DNA from: Actinomycetes bacterium
GTDB lineage: Bacteria > Actinomycetota > Acidimicrobiia > Acidimicrobiales > RAAP-2
NCBI GenBank assembly: GCA_021828005.1
Contig: JAKATJ010000002.1
Location: 2,859 to 41,160 of the forward strand
Length of the DNA: 38,302 bases
Reading direction: 5' to 3'
Under the pieces are notes generated by a model. That model had not been told where the DNA came from. It saw only the letters and a program-made list of their open reading frames with translations, and did not search any database. Below are positions 25,413 through 33,757 of the stretch, piece after piece. The translations under genes and the position numbers were made by a program. The stretch's first letter is position 1, and each line of letters begins with the position of its first letter.

Positions 25413-26999
25413 ATGAGCGACCGCCCTGAGGACAACACGGAACCCGAGAACACCGAGCCGGCAGCGCCAGTGGGCGGCGGGTTCGGGCCCCCCGACGCCG
25501 CGTGGTGGCACCAGTCCCACGGAGGAGCCCCGGTTGGTGCCCAGGGAGGTTCCCAGGCAGGCTGGCCCCAGGATCCGAAGGAGGGAGGGGAAGGCCCGCA
25601 GGACCCGCACCTCGGGGCCCCGCAAGTCCGTGGCGGCCCCGCCGGGTGGCAGGGCGAGCCGTGGCCCGTAGGGCAGTGGGCCTGGGGACCGTCGCCCGGC
25701 GGCTGGGGATTCCCGCCGTACCCGTCGACACCCCCCACGCGCCAGCGCGGCAGAGGCCTGGCGGCGCTGGCGGCCACCTTGCTCACGGTGCTCGCCCTGC
25801 TGGTCGGTGTCGGGATCGGTTACGGCGTGTGGAGTGCTCGCAGCAGCACCCCGACATCGGGGCGCTCCTTCGGCTCGGCTGGGGGCACATCGAGGTTGAC
25901 ATTCACAGGGGCCGCTGCGACATCCTCGAGCGGAGGCGGGACAAAGGTGTCGTCGGCCACCGGCGCGCCCTCGAACATCGCGACAATAAGGGCGAAGGTG
26001 ATGCCGGAGCTGGTGGACATCAACACCGTGCTCGGCTACGAGACAGAGGAGGCGGCCGGCACCGGCATGGTCCTCACGCCCACAGGCAAGGTCCTCACGA
26101 ACAACCACGTGATCGAAGGGGCCACGAAGATCAGCGTGACCGACCTCGGAAACGGGAGGACCTACTCGGCAACGGTGCTTGGGTACACGCGCGCCAACGA
26201 CATCGCCGTACTCCAGCTCGAGGGCGCCTCGGGCCTCAAGACTGTGCACATCGGCAACTCGGCATCGGTGAAGGTGGGCGAGGCCATCGTCGGGATCGGC
26301 AACGCAGGGGGCACCGGTGGGGTGCCGAGTGCGGCCGGCGGCTCGGTCACCGCACTGAGCCAGTCGATCACAGCGAGCGACCAGGGCTCGCTGGGCACGA
26401 CGTACGAGCACCTCACGGGCCTCATCGAGAGCAACGCGGACATCCAGCCCGGTGACTCCGGCGGCCCACTCGTGACGACGTCTGGCGCAGTCGTCGGGAT
26501 GGACACCGCGGCGTCTGCCGCGCAGGGCTACAGCTTCCAAGGAGCAGTGACAGGCCGCGGGTACTCCATACCGATCAACGAGGTCATGTCGACGGCGCGC
26601 CAGATCATGGCGAGGAGGGCGTCGACCACGGTGCATATTGGTGGGACGGCGTTCCTGGGCATCTATGCGGTTGCGCCGCAGACACGGTTCAGCCGCTTCA
26701 GGTTCGGCAGCACAGGGACATTCACACCCAGGACACCGACAGTCACAGCGAAGCCGAGGCTCCCGACGAGGGGGGCCGCGGTCGAGCAGGTGATCCCGAA
26801 CACCCCGGCGCAGGCGGTGGGGCTCGCGGCGACAGACGTGATCACGAGGGTGGGCGGGGCGCTCATCACCAGCCCAAGCGATCTGACGAACGTCTTGCTT
26901 CGGTACCACCCGGGAGACTCGGTGAAGCTGAGCTGGACGACGAGCTCGGGCAGGGCGGTGACGGGGACGGTCAGGCTCGCGAGCGGCCCCCCAGAATGA
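25413..26999 (+). CDS. HtrA/DegP-like trypsin-type serine protease with PDZ domain
   Basis: A 528-residue protein with a Pro/Gly/Trp-rich cytoplasmic N-terminus of about 112 residues, one transmembrane helix at about 115-138, a Ser/Thr-rich spacer, a trypsin-like domain with His232 (TNNHVIEG), Asp263 (NDIAVLQL) and Ser349 (QPGDSGGPL), and a PDZ domain at about 430-525. It should act outside the membrane in protein quality control, as HtrA/DegP/PepD proteins do. The ATG at 25413 has GAGGAG just upstream. The 145-base gap before it holds no clear promoter. It converges with the acetamidase gene only 19 bases away. Confidence 0.92.
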   Translation: MSDRPEDNTEPENTEPAAPVGGGFGPPDAAWWHQSHGGAPVGAQGGSQAGWPQDPKEGGEGPQDPHLGAPQVRGGPAGWQGEPWPVGQWAWGPSPGGWGFPPYPSTPPTRQRGRGLAALAATLLTVLALLVGVGIGYGVWSARSSTPTSGRSFGSAGGTSRLTFTGAAATSSSGGGTKVSSATGAPSNIATIRAKVMPELVDINTVLGYETEEAAGTGMVLTPTGKVLTNNHVIEGATKISVTDLGNGRTYSATVLGYTRANDIAVLQLEGASGLKTVHIGNSASVKVGEAIVGIGNAGGTGGVPSAAGGSVTALSQSITASDQGSLGTTYEHLTGLIESNADIQPGDSGGPLVTTSGAVVGMDTAASAAQGYSFQGAVTGRGYSIPINEVMSTARQIMARRASTTVHIGGTAFLGIYAVAPQTRFSRFRFGSTGTFTPRTPTVTAKPRLPTRGAAVEQVIPNTPAQAVGLAATDVITRVGGALITSPSDLTNVLLRYHPGDSVKLSWTTSSGRAVTGTVRLASGPPE

Positions 27000-27018
27000 T
27001 CACGTCCGCTGCTGCGTA

Positions 27019-28068
27019 TCAGGCCGGAGACCGGCTCGCGAACGGCTGGCCCCGTCTCCTCCTGTACTCGGTGGCGAGGGCGCGGAGCTTGGCGTGCGTG
27101 CCTGTGAAGACCTCCCGCCTAGGCAGCCACCGCTTCGCCATCTTCGCGACCGACGTGTAGTTCACGTCCACCACGTTCGCGAGCGGTGACTCCACCGCCT
27201 GGCTGACGAGCTGGTAGGCGTCGAGCTGGTCGAGCCCGAAATCGACGTGGAGCCAGGAGACCATGTCGGCGTGCGCGATCCGGAAGGCGTCCTCGAGCGG
27301 TCGGGCGGACCCGGTGGAGATGAGATGCGTGTCGTTCTCGATCCGAGGCCAGTGGCACGTGGTGCCCTTCACGAGGTCGAAGATGACCACGGTGTCCATC
27401 GCGCACTCGACCGCGACCCCGCACGTCTCGCCCTCGCCCTGCCGCGCGTGGCCGTCGCCGAGGGAGACCAGCGCACCGGGGACGTTCACCCCGAGGTAGC
27501 AGGTGACCCCGGCGCGCAGCTCCGGCGTGTCCATGTTCCCGCCGAAGGCGTCAGGCACGAGAGCGCTCCGGACCTCGAGGTTGGCAGGGGCGACGCCGAG
27601 GGTCCCGTGCATCGGGTCCATCGGCAGGTCGACAGCCCACGTACGGTCCCGTGCGCGGAAGCGGCAGGTGCGAGCGAGACGGTCGAGGTGCCAGACCCAG
27701 ACCAGTTCGGGAAGTGGCTCGTGGAGCATCGCGGTCGAGTGGGTCGCGGTGAGCGCGCCGAACAGCGGCACGGTGGTCGACACGGCCCAGTCCCGCGCGG
27801 GCTCGATCGAGACGAAGTGCACAGCCAGCGTGTCGCCGGGCTCCGCACCGTCCACGTGGAAGGGGCCCGTCTGGGGGTTAACGAACGGGAATTCGCAGAC
27901 GCGGCTCACGAGGTCCGATTCGCTTCGCACTCTGCCGCAGAAGGCGTCCTCGGTCCACAGCTCGATCACCGTGCCGGGCGTGACCCGACGCACCGGTGGC
28001 ACACCCCCGAACGTCCACGCGAGCTCGCGGGCGTCGGGTCGGTACTCGACCACATCGAAGTCGACCAT
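27019..28068 (-). CDS. acetamidase/formamidase family protein
   Basis: A 349-residue member of the FmdA/AmdA family, amidases that release ammonia from formamide, acetamide or related short amides. Typical stretches are PVRRVTPGTVIELWTEDAFCGRV, NPQTGPFHVDGAEPGDTLAVHF, MHGTLGVAP, GGNMDTPELRAGVTCYLGVNVPGALVSLGDGHARQGEGE and GVAVECAMDTVVIFDLVKG. The length and motifs suggest an active enzyme; the substrate is not determinable. The gene diverges from the asparaginase gene with 161 bases between, where no clear promoter is seen. Confidence 0.9.
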   Translation of the reverse strand: MVDFDVVEYRPDARELAWTFGGVPPVRRVTPGTVIELWTEDAFCGRVRSESDLVSRVCEFPFVNPQTGPFHVDGAEPGDTLAVHFVSIEPARDWAVSTTVPLFGALTATHSTAMLHEPLPELVWVWHLDRLARTCRFRARDRTWAVDLPMDPMHGTLGVAPANLEVRSALVPDAFGGNMDTPELRAGVTCYLGVNVPGALVSLGDGHARQGEGETCGVAVECAMDTVVIFDLVKGTTCHWPRIENDTHLISTGSARPLEDAFRIAHADMVSWLHVDFGLDQLDAYQLVSQAVESPLANVVDVNYTSVAKMAKRWLPRREVFTGTHAKLRALATEYRRRRGQPFASRSPA

Positions 28069-28229
28069 GCCGCACTATGGCACGGGGTGAGCGTCTGCCA
28101 GCGCAGGAAGCGGCTCCCCCTCCGCCCCGGTAGCGTAGCGACTCAACCGGAGCGGGCTCCTGTGGCGAGGCGCGCAGCGAGCGGGGCGAAGGGGCCGAGC
28201 CGCCACGAGGGCGCAAGGGTGGAGGTCGC

Positions 28230-29183
28230 GTGAACGATCCGGTCATCATCGGGAGCGAACGCAGCGAGGTCGGGCTGCCGTCGGGCATGTCCGTGCTACG
28301 GCGAGGCGGGAGCGCGCTCGATGCGGCCGAGGTGGCCATGCGCGCGTGCGAGGACAACCTGTCGGACCATTACGTGGGGACGGGGGGGCTTCCGAACGCG
28401 CGCGGCGAGGTGGAGCTCGATGCATCGGTGATGATCGGCTCCACCCGGGCCTTCGGAGCTGTTGGCGGCGTGAAGGGCTTCCCGAACCCGATCTCGATCG
28501 CGCGCGCGGTGCTCGAACGGCTCCCTCAGCACTGCCTGCTCGTCGGCGAGGGCGCGGAGCTCTTTGCCGAGGAGTGCGGCTTCACCCGAGCCGAGCTGCT
28601 CACCGCAGACGCACGTCGCCTGTACGTGGAGGCTGTCGGCACACAGAGCGAGTCGGTCGAGGGTGAAGACGTGGGAGCGACCGAGGGCGACCGGCGTTAT
28701 CGTCAGTCCGCGCGAGCCCTGATGCGTCGGCTCTCACCGCACGAAGGGCCCTGGGGCACCATCGACGTCCTCGCGCTGGACGCGTTCGGTGAGCTGTGCG
28801 TCGCGGTGTCGACGAGCGGCTACCCGTGGAAGTACCCCGGAAGGGTGGGGGACTCGGCCGTGCCGGGAGCAGGGAATTACTGTGATCTCCGGCACGGCGG
28901 CGCGGCGTGCACGGGCCGCGGGGAGATGGCGATGCGAGCGTGTGGGGCGCGGAGGGTCGTGGACCTGCTCGGGTTCGGCATGGAGCCGACGGAGGCATGC
29001 GCCGAGATGCTGCGCGACGCGCGCTCGATCCCAGACGAGTTCGCGGCCGAGCTCCGGGCGCTGGCGCTCACGCCCGACGGCCGTCACGGCGGCGCGGCGG
29101 GGAAGCTCGGGTCCGTCTACGCCTTCATGACGGCAGACCACACGGAGCCTGAGCTCCGGCCGAGAGCAGTCGTCGATCCGTGA
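28230..29183 (+). CDS. N4-(beta-N-acetylglucosaminyl)-L-asparaginase-like Ntn hydrolase
   Basis: A 317-residue protein of the type 2 asparaginase family, made as a precursor that cuts itself before a Thr nucleophile. The likely nucleophile is Thr177 in WGTIDVLALD, and the motifs STSGYPWKYPGRVGDSAVPGAGNYCD and HGGAACTGRGEMAMRACGARR follow. The first part has AEVAMRACEDNLSDHYVGTGGLPN. Members hydrolyse glycosyl-asparagine or isoaspartyl-type bonds, which cannot be told apart here. The GTG at 28230 has GGAGG nine bases upstream. It converges with the next gene, 7 bases away. Confidence 0.9.
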   Translation: MNDPVIIGSERSEVGLPSGMSVLRRGGSALDAAEVAMRACEDNLSDHYVGTGGLPNARGEVELDASVMIGSTRAFGAVGGVKGFPNPISIARAVLERLPQHCLLVGEGAELFAEECGFTRAELLTADARRLYVEAVGTQSESVEGEDVGATEGDRRYRQSARALMRRLSPHEGPWGTIDVLALDAFGELCVAVSTSGYPWKYPGRVGDSAVPGAGNYCDLRHGGAACTGRGEMAMRACGARRVVDLLGFGMEPTEACAEMLRDARSIPDEFAAELRALALTPDGRHGGAAGKLGSVYAFMTADHTEPELRPRAVVDP

Positions 29184-29190
29184 CACCCGG

Positions 29191-30738
29191 TCACCCGCCG
29201 GAAAGCGTGCCCCCGAGCCGCCGCAGGATCGTGAGCAGGCGGTGGGCGTCCTCTACGGTGGTGAGCCAGTTCATGACCCCAGCGCGAAGGTACGTGCGGC
29301 CTCGCAGCCTCGTCGTCGAGACCCAGGCCTCACCGGAGATCTCGAGGGCACGCTGGAGCCGATCCTGGTGCGCGTCCAGCTCCTCGTCGGACTTCCCGGG
29401 GACCAGGTGACGGAAGCAGACGACCGAAAGGTCTGGCTGCGCGACCGCGGCCTCGAAGTCGAAAGCCCGCCCCAGCTCGGCGGCGAGCACCGCCGCGACG
29501 TCGTTGTCGTGCTCGACGAGCCGTGCGAACCCCTCGCTCCCGACGTGCTTCCAGGACGCCCACAGCTTGAGGGCGCGGAGGCGCCGGGTGCCTTCCATCG
29601 AGTACTCGAGCCAGTTGAGCGGCTCGGCGTCGGGGGTCGCTGAGCGGTAGTACTCGGGCGACCGGTGGAAGGTCCCGTGCAGGTCCTCTCTTCGGCGAAC
29701 GACGAGAGCGCCGATGTCGTAAGCCTGGAACAGCCACTTGTGGGGGTCGACGGTGACGGAGTCGGCGAGCTCCAGACCAGGGACACGCCGTGCGTCGCGC
29801 GTGGACAGCCGGGCCGCGCCTCCGTACGCGGCGTCCACGTGGAGCCACAGGCCTTCTCGGCGGGCGAGCGCCGCGAGCCCCGGAACGTCGTCGACGGACC
29901 CGGTGTTGGTGGTGCCGCACACCGCGGCGATGCAGAACGGCACCAGCCCGGCCGCCCGGTCGTCGGCGATCCGGCGCGCGACCGGCTCTGCCTGGAGGCG
30001 GTACCGCTCGTCGCTCTCCACGACGACGAGGGAGTCGGGCGGGAACCCGAGCATGTCGAGGGCACGGCCGATGGAGAAGTGCGCCTGGTCCGAGACGTAG
30101 ACCCTCGCTGCCTCGAGGGCTCGGCCGCGCGGGGGGCCCACGGTCCCGGCGAGGTGGCAGAGGTGCCGGTCGCGCGCGACGGTCATCGCCATGATGTTGG
30201 CCATCACCCCGCCCGACGTCAGGACTCCCCAGCTGTCGGCGCCGCACCCGACGAGGTCCGCGAGCCAGCGGATCACCTCCTCTTCGACGAGCGCCCCGAC
30301 CGGACCGGAGTGGAAGACGTCGATCCCTTGGTGGAACACCTGGCAGCACAGCTCGCCCGCCACCGACATCGGCAGGGGCGGAGGGGTGAAGTAGGAGAAC
30401 GATCCGGGGTGGTAGGCGTTGTACAGGCAGGGGACCACCCGCTCGCGGATCTCATCGAGGACTGCCGACGAGGGACGAGGGGCCGTCGGCGCAGGGGCCG
30501 GTCCGAGCGAGGGGCCGAAGAACCGGGCGCGCAGCTCCTGGTAGGAGTCGGGGCCGACGGTGCGGACCAGGCCCTCGTCGTAGACGTAGTCGAGGGCGAG
30601 CGTCCAGGCGTCCCGACCGAGGCCTTCGAGCGTCTTGCGTGCACCGGCTGCACGAAGGTCGAACAGCTCGGGCTCGGGGTGCCACTCGAACCGTGCCGCG
30701 ACGGGTGCGTGGCGGGGGGGAGGCGTGGAGTCGTCCAT
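29191..30738 (-). CDS. PLP-dependent group II decarboxylase
   Basis: A 515-residue protein of the group II amino acid decarboxylase family (aromatic-L-amino-acid, glutamate and related decarboxylases). The PLP lysine is Lys334 in VDPHKWLF, the ring-stacking His is in SDQAHFS (about 220), and the pyridine-nitrogen Asp is in HVDAAYGG (about 302). The N-terminal NAYHPGSFSYFTPPPLPMSVAGE shape fits the aromatic amino acid or tyrosine-type group. The substrate is uncertain. The ATG at 30738 was chosen over a GTG six codons upstream; neither has a strong ribosome binding site. Confidence 0.9.
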   Translation of the reverse strand: MDDSTPPPRHAPVAARFEWHPEPELFDLRAAGARKTLEGLGRDAWTLALDYVYDEGLVRTVGPDSYQELRARFFGPSLGPAPAPTAPRPSSAVLDEIRERVVPCLYNAYHPGSFSYFTPPPLPMSVAGELCCQVFHQGIDVFHSGPVGALVEEEVIRWLADLVGCGADSWGVLTSGGVMANIMAMTVARDRHLCHLAGTVGPPRGRALEAARVYVSDQAHFSIGRALDMLGFPPDSLVVVESDERYRLQAEPVARRIADDRAAGLVPFCIAAVCGTTNTGSVDDVPGLAALARREGLWLHVDAAYGGAARLSTRDARRVPGLELADSVTVDPHKWLFQAYDIGALVVRRREDLHGTFHRSPEYYRSATPDAEPLNWLEYSMEGTRRLRALKLWASWKHVGSEGFARLVEHDNDVAAVLAAELGRAFDFEAAVAQPDLSVVCFRHLVPGKSDEELDAHQDRLQRALEISGEAWVSTTRLRGRTYLRAGVMNWLTTVEDAHRLLTILRRLGGTLSGG

Positions 30739-30886
30739 GGCTCGATGCTCGCGCACGCACGGTAGGTCCGACGTCGCTCACGTAGCGTTGGGCTGCGCTC
30801 GATCCAACCCCGCTGGTCGTCGGGGAGACGGTTGGGGCGACCGCGCGCCGGACGCGCGTCGCCCTGCGGTCAGGTGGAGGACGGGC

Positions 30887-31276
30887 TCATCCCACGATCG
30901 ACGCGACGTGCTTCGCGAGCTTGTCCTCGATCTCGAAGTTCCAAGCCGTCTCCGCGACGTCGACGACCAGGAACAAGTCCGAGATGAGGAGCGTTTCCAA
31001 GGCCATCACCGCAAGGTGCTCGACCCATTTGCCGATCCCGATCCGTACCGTGAAGTCTTCGGGCGTTCCGGACACGAGAACCGAAAGTGCCCGGTCGGCG
31101 TCGACCACACCACGCAGGAAGCCGCCCTTCTTCGCCTGGAGCAGGGTGCCCTGCTCGCTCGGTTCGGAGGTCTGGACGCTGAACCCATCAGCTTCGAGGT
31201 ACGAAGAGATGTTGTGCTGGAGAGCCGCGAGATCCGTGGCCTTCCCCTCGAAGTGCATGACCTTTTCGCCGATCAT
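30887..31276 (-). CDS. conserved hypothetical protein, 129 residues
   Basis: A soluble alpha/beta protein with no signal peptide. It begins MIGEKVMHFEGKATDLAALQ and has a well-defined core (SSYLEADGF, LLQAKKGGFLRG, DFTVRIGIGKWVEHLAVMALETLL). A near-perfect GGAGG precedes the ATG at 31276, so translation is likely; a longer reading to 31453 is not supported. I do not recognise a named family. It may be transcribed with the upstream PGK-like gene on the same strand, 118 bases away. The 148-base gap 30739-30886 holds nothing I can identify. Confidence 0.7.
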   Translation of the reverse strand: MIGEKVMHFEGKATDLAALQHNISSYLEADGFSVQTSEPSEQGTLLQAKKGGFLRGVVDADRALSVLVSGTPEDFTVRIGIGKWVEHLAVMALETLLISDLFLVVDVAETAWNFEIEDKLAKHVASIVG

Positions 31277-31394
31277 CTCGCCTCCTTCGCGCCGAGCCCA
31301 CACGAGCGGGACGCGCAGGATCGTACACACGGGTCCCGTCGAAGTTCTCGCCGGCGGGAGCGTTGGGCCGCGGTCGACCGTAGCGCGCAACTCC

Positions 31395-32594
31395 TCAGGA
31401 GCTAGAGGGATCTCGGTCCACGTTCGCCGCGCCGGCGGCACGTGCCGCCTCACGGATGGCGGAGATCGCGGGAAGATCGCCGTTCTTCAAGAGCTCGATG
31501 GCGCTGTCGGTGGCGGTGAGCACTTCGGACTTGCCCGGCCGGATCTGCTCACGCCAGAGGAGCGTGACGAGGGCGTCGCCCCCGAGCACCACCGATTGCT
31601 TGTCCGCCAACGCGGAGGCGAGTGCCCGGGTGCCGGCACGGAAGGGCTCGCTCTCCACCATCCCGACGCTTCCGGCCCACAACACGGAGCCAGCCCCGCG
31701 GAGCTCCTCCCCGAAGCGCAGGCAGGTGGCAGGGCCGATGTCGACGACAACGTCTCCGGTCCGCTCCCGTCTCGTGGAGACGTGCACCCGCCCGCCGCGT
31801 GACCACACGAGATCGGCAGGAAGGACGAGACGGTGGCGCACCCGCTGCGACAGGCCATGCACGCTGCGGCACTCCTGGATGAAGTCGTTGTCGCAGTCTT
31901 CCGCGGGTTCTCGTCCGAGCGCCTGGAGCATGGGCAGCGCGAGGCCCCCGCCGAGCAGGACCGCGTCGGCACGGAGCACGAGTCCCACGAGGCGGTGGAG
32001 GCGGCCGAACGTGCGCTCGCCGCCCAGCACCGCAACGAACGGCCGGGGTGGGGCGGTGAGGAGGGGCTCGAGGACCGTTAGGTCGCGTTGCAGGGTGCGG
32101 CCGATCGCGGAGGGCAGCAGCGTGGGTGGCAACGTGACGCTCGGTACTGGCAGCAGCGAGTCCTGCAGCGAGTCGTTCACGAATAGGTCGTGGTGCGCGA
32201 CGACCTGCGCGACCGCTTCCCTGTCCTCGTCTTCGGCACACCGTTTGAGGCGCAACGCGCCGCTGTCGAGCGAGGGCTCGAGCGCGAGAAGGACTGTCCG
32301 TACGTGGGACAGATGGCCGCCCGCACCGCCGTGCGCACCGCCACCGCCGTGCGCACCGCCACCGCCTTGCGCACCGCCCCCGCCCCACACGGTCACGTGC
32401 GCGCCCCGCTCGGCGAGCCACCGCACCGTCGCCGCCAATCCCTCGGCTCGGATCTGTGCGAGGGGCGAGGAGGGCGCGGAAGACAGGGGGAGGTCGAGGG
32501 TGGAGCGGACGAGCACGTTCGCACCGTGGGGGTCCGGCAGGTCCTCGAGGAGCGGTAGCCCCATCGGACGCGCGCCGCTTGGAGCTGAGCTCAT
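31395..32594 (-). CDS. degenerate phosphoglycerate kinase paralogue
   Basis: A 399-residue protein with the overall order of phosphoglycerate kinase: VLVRSTLDLPL at the start, FVNDSLQDS, LLPSAIGRTLQRDLTVLEPLL, RPFVAVLGGERTFGRL, a GGGLALPMLQALG stretch, DIGPATCLRF and VLWAGSVGM. Key PGK residues are changed: VRxDxN is VRSTLD, HLGRP is replaced by a Gly/His-rich repeat, GGAKVSDK is GGERTFGR, and WNGPMG is WAGSVG. It is unlikely to make ATP from 1,3-bisphosphoglycerate. The reading frame is intact, so it may have a new role. Its ATG overlaps the HTH gene stop (ATGA). A true pgk is expected elsewhere. Confidence 0.75.
   Translation of the reverse strand: MSSAPSGARPMGLPLLEDLPDPHGANVLVRSTLDLPLSSAPSSPLAQIRAEGLAATVRWLAERGAHVTVWGGGGAQGGGGAHGGGGAHGGAGGHLSHVRTVLLALEPSLDSGALRLKRCAEDEDREAVAQVVAHHDLFVNDSLQDSLLPVPSVTLPPTLLPSAIGRTLQRDLTVLEPLLTAPPRPFVAVLGGERTFGRLHRLVGLVLRADAVLLGGGLALPMLQALGREPAEDCDNDFIQECRSVHGLSQRVRHRLVLPADLVWSRGGRVHVSTRRERTGDVVVDIGPATCLRFGEELRGAGSVLWAGSVGMVESEPFRAGTRALASALADKQSVVLGGDALVTLLWREQIRPGKSEVLTATDSAIELLKNGDLPAISAIREAARAAGAANVDRDPSSS
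32322..32387 (-). repeat. 18-base tandem repeat encoding a Gly/His-rich loop in the PGK-like gene
   Basis: On the + strand, units starting CGCACCGCC occur at 32334, 32352 and 32370, each 18 bases long with small changes, plus a 12-base partial unit at 32322-32333. On the coding strand they encode GGGGAH-type units. They sit where active PGKs have the HLGRP loop. Confidence 0.75.
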
Positions 32595-32914
32595 GCCTCG
32601 AGTCTGGGTCCGGTACGTGCCCGGGCGCAGGGGCTTTCGGCAGCAGTAGGGCGTCCGCCGCGAACGGGGTGGCCGTACTCGTCGGAGAACCGCTCCCACG
32701 CGGATAGGCGCGCCATTCCCAGCGTTCCGCCGATGCGCGCCCAGGTGACGCCACGCGTCCTGAGCGCCGCGACGTGATGAGCGACCGCCCGGTCAACGGT
32801 CTCGTGAGCGGCATGAGCATGCACCATCTCGGCGAGCAGCTCCTCGTCGGACCAGGTTGGCGCGGTCACGCCGGCTGCGGCCCGGAGGATCAACGCAGGC
32901 TTGTCGAGCTTCAT
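32591..32914 (-). CDS. small helix-turn-helix protein
   Basis: A 107-residue protein. Residues about 45-80 (VAALRTRGVTWARIGGTLGMARLSAWERFSDEYG) match the actinobacterial helix-turn-helix pattern of G-x-S/T-W-A-x-I-G-x-x-L-G followed by AWERF, seen in small DNA-binding proteins. The basic C-terminal tail is disordered. The stop TGA overlaps the ATG of the PGK-like gene (ATGA at 32591-32594), so the pair is coupled. The ATG at 32914 has only a weak ribosome binding site. The DNA target is unknown. Confidence 0.65.
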   Translation of the reverse strand: MKLDKPALILRAAAGVTAPTWSDEELLAEMVHAHAAHETVDRAVAHHVAALRTRGVTWARIGGTLGMARLSAWERFSDEYGHPVRGGRPTAAESPCARARTGPRLEA

Positions 32915-32924
32915 GGCTCGATCA

Positions 32925-33595
32925 GGGGGGGCTGGTTCTGAGCGGGACCGGGCTGCCCTCGGATCGCCTGGGCACGACAGGGGACTTCTACATTCGCACC
33001 GTCACCGACCAGCTGTTCGGGCCGAAGACAATCCGGATCGCCGATCCTTGGGGCGCTGTCGGCATCCGCGTCGGGGGCCCGAGGGGTCCAGCGGGCCCGG
33101 CCGGTCCGTCGGGTCCGAGGCGTCCAGCGGGCGCCCAAAGCCCGAAGGGCACCTGCGGCACGTCCATTACTGAGCGGCACGGTGCCGCCGACGAACCAGG
33201 GGACCACAGGTGACTTCTATCTGTATCTGGACACCTCGACCGAGGTGCTCTACGGGCCCAAGATCGAAGGGAGCTGGTCACCCACGGGCAGGAGCCTGAT
33301 CAGGAGCGCTGGCCCGTCGATCATGCTGACAACGATCGCGGACAGATCTACGTTCGCTGCACCTGCTGCCGCGTCGAGCACAGCCACCGGCGTCGTTTCG
33401 TGCCCGCCGGGCTACGCCGTCACCGGTGGTGGATATACGAGCAATGTGGTAGCGGTGAGTGTGCAGAACGACGGGCCGGTCCTGACGGGAACAACCTGAG
33501 AGCCGACAGCGTCCGTCACCGATACGACAGCGACGCAAAAGGTGACCGCGATGGTCTACGCGGACTGTGGGAAGGGAGCAGGACACTTCGAATGA
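32925..33595 (+). pseudogene. decayed collagen-like repeat protein gene
   Basis: Two copies of a unit known from bacterial collagen-like proteins are visible: LSGTGLPSDRLGTTGDFYI...LFGPK with a Gly-Pro triplet run (GPRGPAGPAGPSGP) in one frame, then LSGTVPPTNQGTTGDFYLY...LYGPK in another frame from about 33167. An indel just before 33167 separates them. The C-terminal part (VVSCPPGYAVTGGGYTSN) runs into TGA at 33497-33499, yet the same frame continues beyond it with EPTASVTDTTATQKVTAMVYADC to 33595, suggesting a Trp codon turned to stop. No start codon fits, and the 5' end is lost into the HTH gene's upstream DNA. Confidence 0.7.
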
Positions 33596-33673
33596 TCGTC
33601 GGCAGCCGCTGACGATGCCTGGAGCTGTGGGGCCGAGAAGGCTCAGTCGAGGCGCGGGAGCCGTCGTGTTGCG

Positions 33674-33757
33674 TGGGCGAGGGGGGACTTGAACCCCCAC
33701 ATCCTTTCGGACACAGGAACCTGAATCCTGCGCGTCTGCCTATTCCGCCACTCGCCC
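33674..33757 (-). tRNA. tRNA-Leu (anticodon CAG)
   Basis: An 84-base cloverleaf on the minus strand. The acceptor stem pairs 33751-33757 with 33675-33681, and A is the discriminator base at 33674. The anticodon stem CAGGA/TCCTG encloses the loop TTCAGGT with anticodon CAG, which reads CUG. A long variable arm (TGTCC-GAAA-GGATG) and the T arm GGGGG-TTCAAGT-CCCCC confirm a class II tRNA-Leu. The CCA end is not encoded. Confidence 0.95.

Follow-up and report, generated by a model that had tools for sequence, protein, structure and literature searches.

A phosphoglycerate kinase-like paralogue with an altered inter-domain cleft, under purifying selection in an actinobacterial lineage

The PGK-like gene and its surroundings

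The window is a 38,302-nt stretch of an actinobacterial MAG (2.3 Mb, ~86% complete). Towards its end it carries, on the reverse strand, a phosphoglycerate kinase (PGK)-like gene, referred to here as PGKL, and a helix–turn–helix (HTH) frame that overlaps the PGKL start. The features discussed below are as follows.

31395..32594, (−) strand: PGKL, a PGK-like paralogue of 399 aa whose two-domain PGK fold has an altered inter-domain cleft (Pfam PF00162, AF2 model, match to 1vpe, clade, selection)
32324..32384, (−) strand: 18-bp tandem repeat encoding a Gly/His linker where PGK has the HLGRP loop region (TRF: 3.4 copies, 95% match); variable, not conserved
32591..32914, (−) strand: HTH frame related to ClpX-C4-zinc-finger/HTH small proteins but truncated and probably decaying (identity to the G033 protein, stop loss against G008, half deleted in G009)
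32675..32677, (−) strand: site of the ancestral HTH stop, which reads TAA in G008 but TAC here, and after it the window has a 2-nt gap (pairwise DNA alignment; related proteins end here)
31345..32775, no strand: interval absent from the sister genome G009, where PGKL is missing entirely and the HTH frame lacks its 3′ half (by blastn, window 26852-31344 is collinear with L202 1-4517 and window 32776-32852 with L202 4517-4593)

The PGKL frame matched the Pfam PGK family (PF00162) with 135 bits (cut-off 27; E 3.9e-39), and a sequence search aligned solved PGKs to the C-terminal two thirds of the protein. The AlphaFold model (AF2, 23 sequences in the input) reached a pLDDT of 87 and a pTM of 0.87. 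Compared with the PDB, its best matches were PGKs without exception, with a Z of 37.5 to 1vpe (Thermotoga PGK) over 359 residues. By profile match and two-domain fold PGKL belongs to the PGK family, and the intact open frame with PGK similarity described in an earlier note on this DNA is real far beyond chance, as the Pfam E value and the selected, intact homologues described below indicate. The start codon is ambiguous, being either the ATG at 32594 or an in-frame ATG ten codons downstream at 'RPMGLPLLEDLPDP'. No promoter- or terminator-like sites above chance were found near PGKL. A canonical pgk with every motif intact is located on another contig of the same genome, inside a gap-pgk-tpi cluster.

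At window positions 30887-31294 a conserved 135-aa protein without clear Pfam family is encoded; most genomes of the genus have it, and the window's genome carries a second copy on contig C83.

The HTH neighbour, the Gly/His stretch and the G009 deletion

The PGKL start (32594) and the end of the HTH stop codon (32591) share an ATGA. Starting from this overlap, the earlier note had proposed a metabolite-sensing regulatory pair of PGKL and the HTH protein, or alternatively a metal-binding protein with a Gly/His loop. The overlap exists in the window sequence but is not conserved. In G008, the closest relative, the HTH frame ends with ...SAWERFSDE-TAA, 82 nt before the PGKL start, and the related G033 protein ends similarly (...SAWERFSGEE*). 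Past 32675..32677 the window frame is read-through, up into the PGKL start. The ATGA is thus explained by loss of the HTH stop in the window only (TAA to TAC plus the 2-nt gap, compared with G008). As it is seen in one MAG, this stop loss could be a sequencing or assembly error.

HTH residues 22-79 (58 residues) are 76% identical to the central part of the G033 protein, which carries a zf-C4_ClpX (PF06689) zinc finger, and the two share the same natural protein end. Unlike proteins of this class, which combine an N-terminal C4 zinc finger with an HTH part ending ...SAWERF, the window frame has no zinc-finger half (absent from the window), has lost its stop codon and is weakly constrained. Against G008 we counted four nonsynonymous and two synonymous changes in 40 codons (dN/dS ~0.73, too few codons for a firm rate); two window changes, A to T and Q to L, leave the family consensus. 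We searched the other genomes for the pair and found the HTH neighbour in G008 only. It was absent next to PGKL in G001, G005, G019, G022, G024, G035 and L052, while L051 offers only 156 bases upstream; a conserved PGKL–HTH pair is therefore not observed. A regulatory pair would fit the gene order and overlap in the window, and in kinetoplastid PGKL a dead PGK domain is fused to cNMP-binding and HTH-like domains (PMC7729029). Given the G008 frame end, the stop loss, the missing neighbour elsewhere and the HTH dN/dS, we consider such a pair very improbable. The HTH frame is probably a truncated, decaying bystander of PGKL, outside any conserved unit.

The proposal of a metal-binding protein, which we regard as equally improbable, fared no better. 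The Gly/His repeat does occupy the place of the HLGRP loop, as had been noted, and residues 75-90 are disordered in the AlphaFold prediction. However, the repeat of the closest relative, G008, is longer and contains no histidine, and the other members carry unrelated short sequences and no repeat. The loop histidines are thus not conserved and metal binding is unsupported. Judged by these sequences, the stretch is an unstable linker; it does not constitute a conserved metal site.

Between 26852 and 38302 the window and the sister genome G009 are collinear (79-91% identity), apart from one 1.4-kb gap in G009 and ~490 differing bases upstream of the HTH frame. G009 keeps the 5′ half of this frame. 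Since the junction cuts the HTH frame, the gap most plausibly arose by deletion in G009. A profile search found no copy of PGKL elsewhere in this genome (84% complete), and PGKL is therefore dispensable there. The ~490 bases upstream of the HTH remnant (L202 4594-5085) have no counterpart in the window, and the zinc-finger half was not found there. In the window, positions 32911-33500, just upstream of the HTH frame, contain disrupted frames in which collagen-like Gly-X-Pro repeats and recurring 'TGDFY...YGPK' segments can be recognised; they look like what is left of a collagen-like repeat protein. A tRNA-Leu(CAG) gene (33673-33757) adjoins this degraded stretch. Together with the truncated HTH frame and the 1.4-kb deletion, these features suggest a plastic region.

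Cleft residues, distribution and selection

We assigned site roles from published work (PMC7729029) and general PGK knowledge; the 3PG ligands of PGK are R65, H62, H167 and R170 (PMC7729029). At 17 of 22 canonical substrate or catalytic positions PGKL differs from the canonical PGK of its own genome, with an alignment uncertainty of about one residue near R122 and in the GGGD loop. The earlier statement that nearly all PGK catalytic motifs are changed is therefore correct. In the 3PG site, D23 is replaced by T, N25 by D, H62 by G, R65 by A and R170 by L, the H167 equivalent is gone and the R122 position is poorly aligned. PGKL thus does not have the 3PG basic patch of a PGK enzyme (H62, R65, R122 and R170, with D23 and N25).

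The residues of phosphoryl transfer are likewise altered. K215, the transfer lysine (transferred phosphate), and K219, the β-phosphate lysine, are both R in the window protein; N336 is replaced by A and STGGG by TATDS, and the K215/K219/N336/GGGD/STGGG set of a PGK enzyme is not present. Among the PGKL members introduced below, the K215 position is occupied by R, D, N, S or Q, never by lysine, the N336 position by A, C, M or V, and STGGG by (S/T)(A/S)T(D/G)S. An Asp is kept at or adjoining the position of the Mg-binding Asp; D340 may be this Asp itself, displaced by one alignment column. Judging from these replacements, PGKL very probably cannot act as a PGK.

PGKL homologues were found in G008 (94% identity to the window protein), G001 and G005 (66%), G019 (53%), G022 (50%), G035 (45%) and G024 (44%). 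Each of these genomes also has a canonical PGK, 33-39% identical to the window protein; PGKs of the same order show ~35%. A scan of named genomes added L051 and L052. The ten intact homologues span 39-94% identity, form one clade (support 100/100) and come only from actinobacterial MAGs (Acidimicrobiaceae, Actinomycetes or Actinobacteria). Searching with a profile of ten members, we detected PGKL in 9/172 genomes belonging to the window's family and in one further genome (judged by contig coordinates, G440 of this family scan appears to be L051). Its occurrence is patchy, with PGKL in 4 of the 13 genomes of the genus. Members scored 535-593 bits and all other sequences of a 395-genome class sample at most 287, the level of canonical PGK, with none between. 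Beyond the listed members, this sample and a scan of 84,980 species genomes with degenerate patterns yielded canonical PGKs only; more divergent ones could escape. We rejected a viral origin, as viral contigs hold no relative. A comparison of nine loci revealed no conserved operon around PGKL, genes being shared only within the close pairs window–G008 and G001–G005. Carbamate-kinase-like genes lie near two members (L049 and L052), but their distances differ and we attribute them to chance.

Several new cleft residues are invariant in 10/10 PGKLs: D34 (N25 to D), Q144 (G166 to Q), R198 (K219 to R), D340 (G to D), T362 (G to T) and K370 (E to K). L342, which lies with D340 in the GGGDS loop, and H254 are also fixed in all ten. 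The R38 equivalent is retained in seven of ten members and E343 in nine. Basal PGKLs keep D23 and H62, both lost in the window's subclade, so the catalytic residues were lost stepwise. Invariance was more common at functional sites (8/22) than elsewhere (62/343); the p value of 0.04 is nominal, and the test is weak because the site list was drawn up after the alignment had been seen.

We estimated dN/dS by Nei–Gojobori counting with the variable loop left out, a simple method with high dS in distant pairs. PGKL values were 0.17-0.42 (window vs G008, 0.17; G001 vs G005, 0.39; G035 vs G024, 0.28), in the range of canonical pgk in the same three pairs (0.29, 0.17 and 0.32, respectively). The deficit of nonsynonymous changes was significant in each pair (p 1e-10 to 6e-22; window vs G008, Fisher p 1e-10). 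The dN/dS check suggested in the earlier note thus yielded purifying selection, already against the nearest sister. Frame disruption in relatives, which that note had named as a sign of simple decay, was seen for the HTH gene; all ten PGKL frames are intact, though G009 has lost the gene whole. PGKL is a subfamily under selection, as its single clade, intact frames and purifying selection demonstrate.

The stepwise loss of catalytic residues, the repeat expanded inside a loop and the clean deletion in G009 could also mean that a redundant duplicate of pgk, now without function, is slowly decaying. We consider this unlikely, as ten frames have stayed intact across large divergence, dN/dS is well below 1 with a significant shortage of nonsynonymous changes, and shared derived residues are fixed in all ten members.

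Possible roles of PGKL

Taken together, our data favour PGKL as a repurposed, stand-alone PGK paralogue, probably a ligand-binding pseudoenzyme and neither a PGK nor a decaying pseudogene; we give this reading a probability of roughly 0.5. The genome has an intact canonical pgk, and the cleft switches are fixed in members only ~40% identical. The patchy occurrence and the clean deletion in G009 indicate that PGKL is dispensable, which counts against it. From the earlier idea of a dead kinase fold we retain a PGK-fold frame that is hardly a working PGK and is kept by selection; its pairing with the HTH gene and metal binding are dropped.

As a repurposed protein, PGKL would no longer phosphorylate or dephosphorylate 3PG/1,3BPG. 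Its cleft may still bind a ligand, perhaps a nucleotide or another phospho-compound, a guess prompted by R198 at the position of the β-phosphate lysine and by the Asp at or beside the Mg-binding position. On ligand binding the hinge would close as it does in PGK, and in this closed state the protein might regulate carbon metabolism or act there as a scaffold. PGKL would work on its own, next to an unrelated and degenerating HTH frame.

With E343 and the R38 equivalent kept in most members, some chemistry is still conceivable. PGKL could be a new enzyme in which the PGK fold performs phosphoryl or acyl-phosphate transfer on another substrate via D34, Q144, R198, H254, D340 and T362. These two retentions, and the new residues at former catalytic positions, which are fixed and do not vary at random, are consistent with this possibility. 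We nevertheless hold it to be doubtful: K215, N336 and the STGGG phosphate loop were lost without one fixed basic replacement, small or hydrophobic residues occupy two of these positions, and PGKL has no metabolic gene neighbourhood.

Few enzymes are as conserved as phosphoglycerate kinase, and to our knowledge dead PGK paralogues have been described mainly in kinetoplastids. In the openly accessible literature searched, we found no bacterial dead-PGK family. Canonical PGK (PF00162) shares with PGKL the two-domain fold over the whole length and the structural motifs DIGP, W-G, GG and LP-D. It differs in having R65, H62, H167, R170, K215, N336, the STGGG loop and the gap-pgk-tpi setting, whereas PGKL has the new invariant D, Q, R, D, T and K at cleft positions. 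Among described cases, kinetoplastid PGKL comes closest, being likewise a PGK paralogue without key catalytic residues alongside active PGK genes. The kinetoplastid proteins are 89-110 kDa in size and fused to cyclic-nucleotide-binding, transmembrane or HTH-like regions, and a T. brucei PGKL null mutant is viable (PMC7729029, PMC4106842), comparable to the natural loss in G009. In contrast to these eukaryotic fusions, the protein described here is bacterial, with 399 aa and a single domain set. The bacterial and kinetoplastid PGKLs likely arose separately.

Automatic annotation would label PGKL genes 'phosphoglycerate kinase', a label to be treated with caution. Tentatively, and with somewhat less confidence than in the repurposing itself, we propose that PGKL is a family of bacterial proteins derived from a glycolytic kinase, which may have become either a regulator responding to a ligand or an enzyme with a new specificity; selection would have acted on the rebuilt cleft in several genera of one actinobacterial lineage. 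With its graded loss of the 3PG site and its fixed new cleft, this clade would make the stepwise change of role of a glycolytic enzyme testable biochemically.
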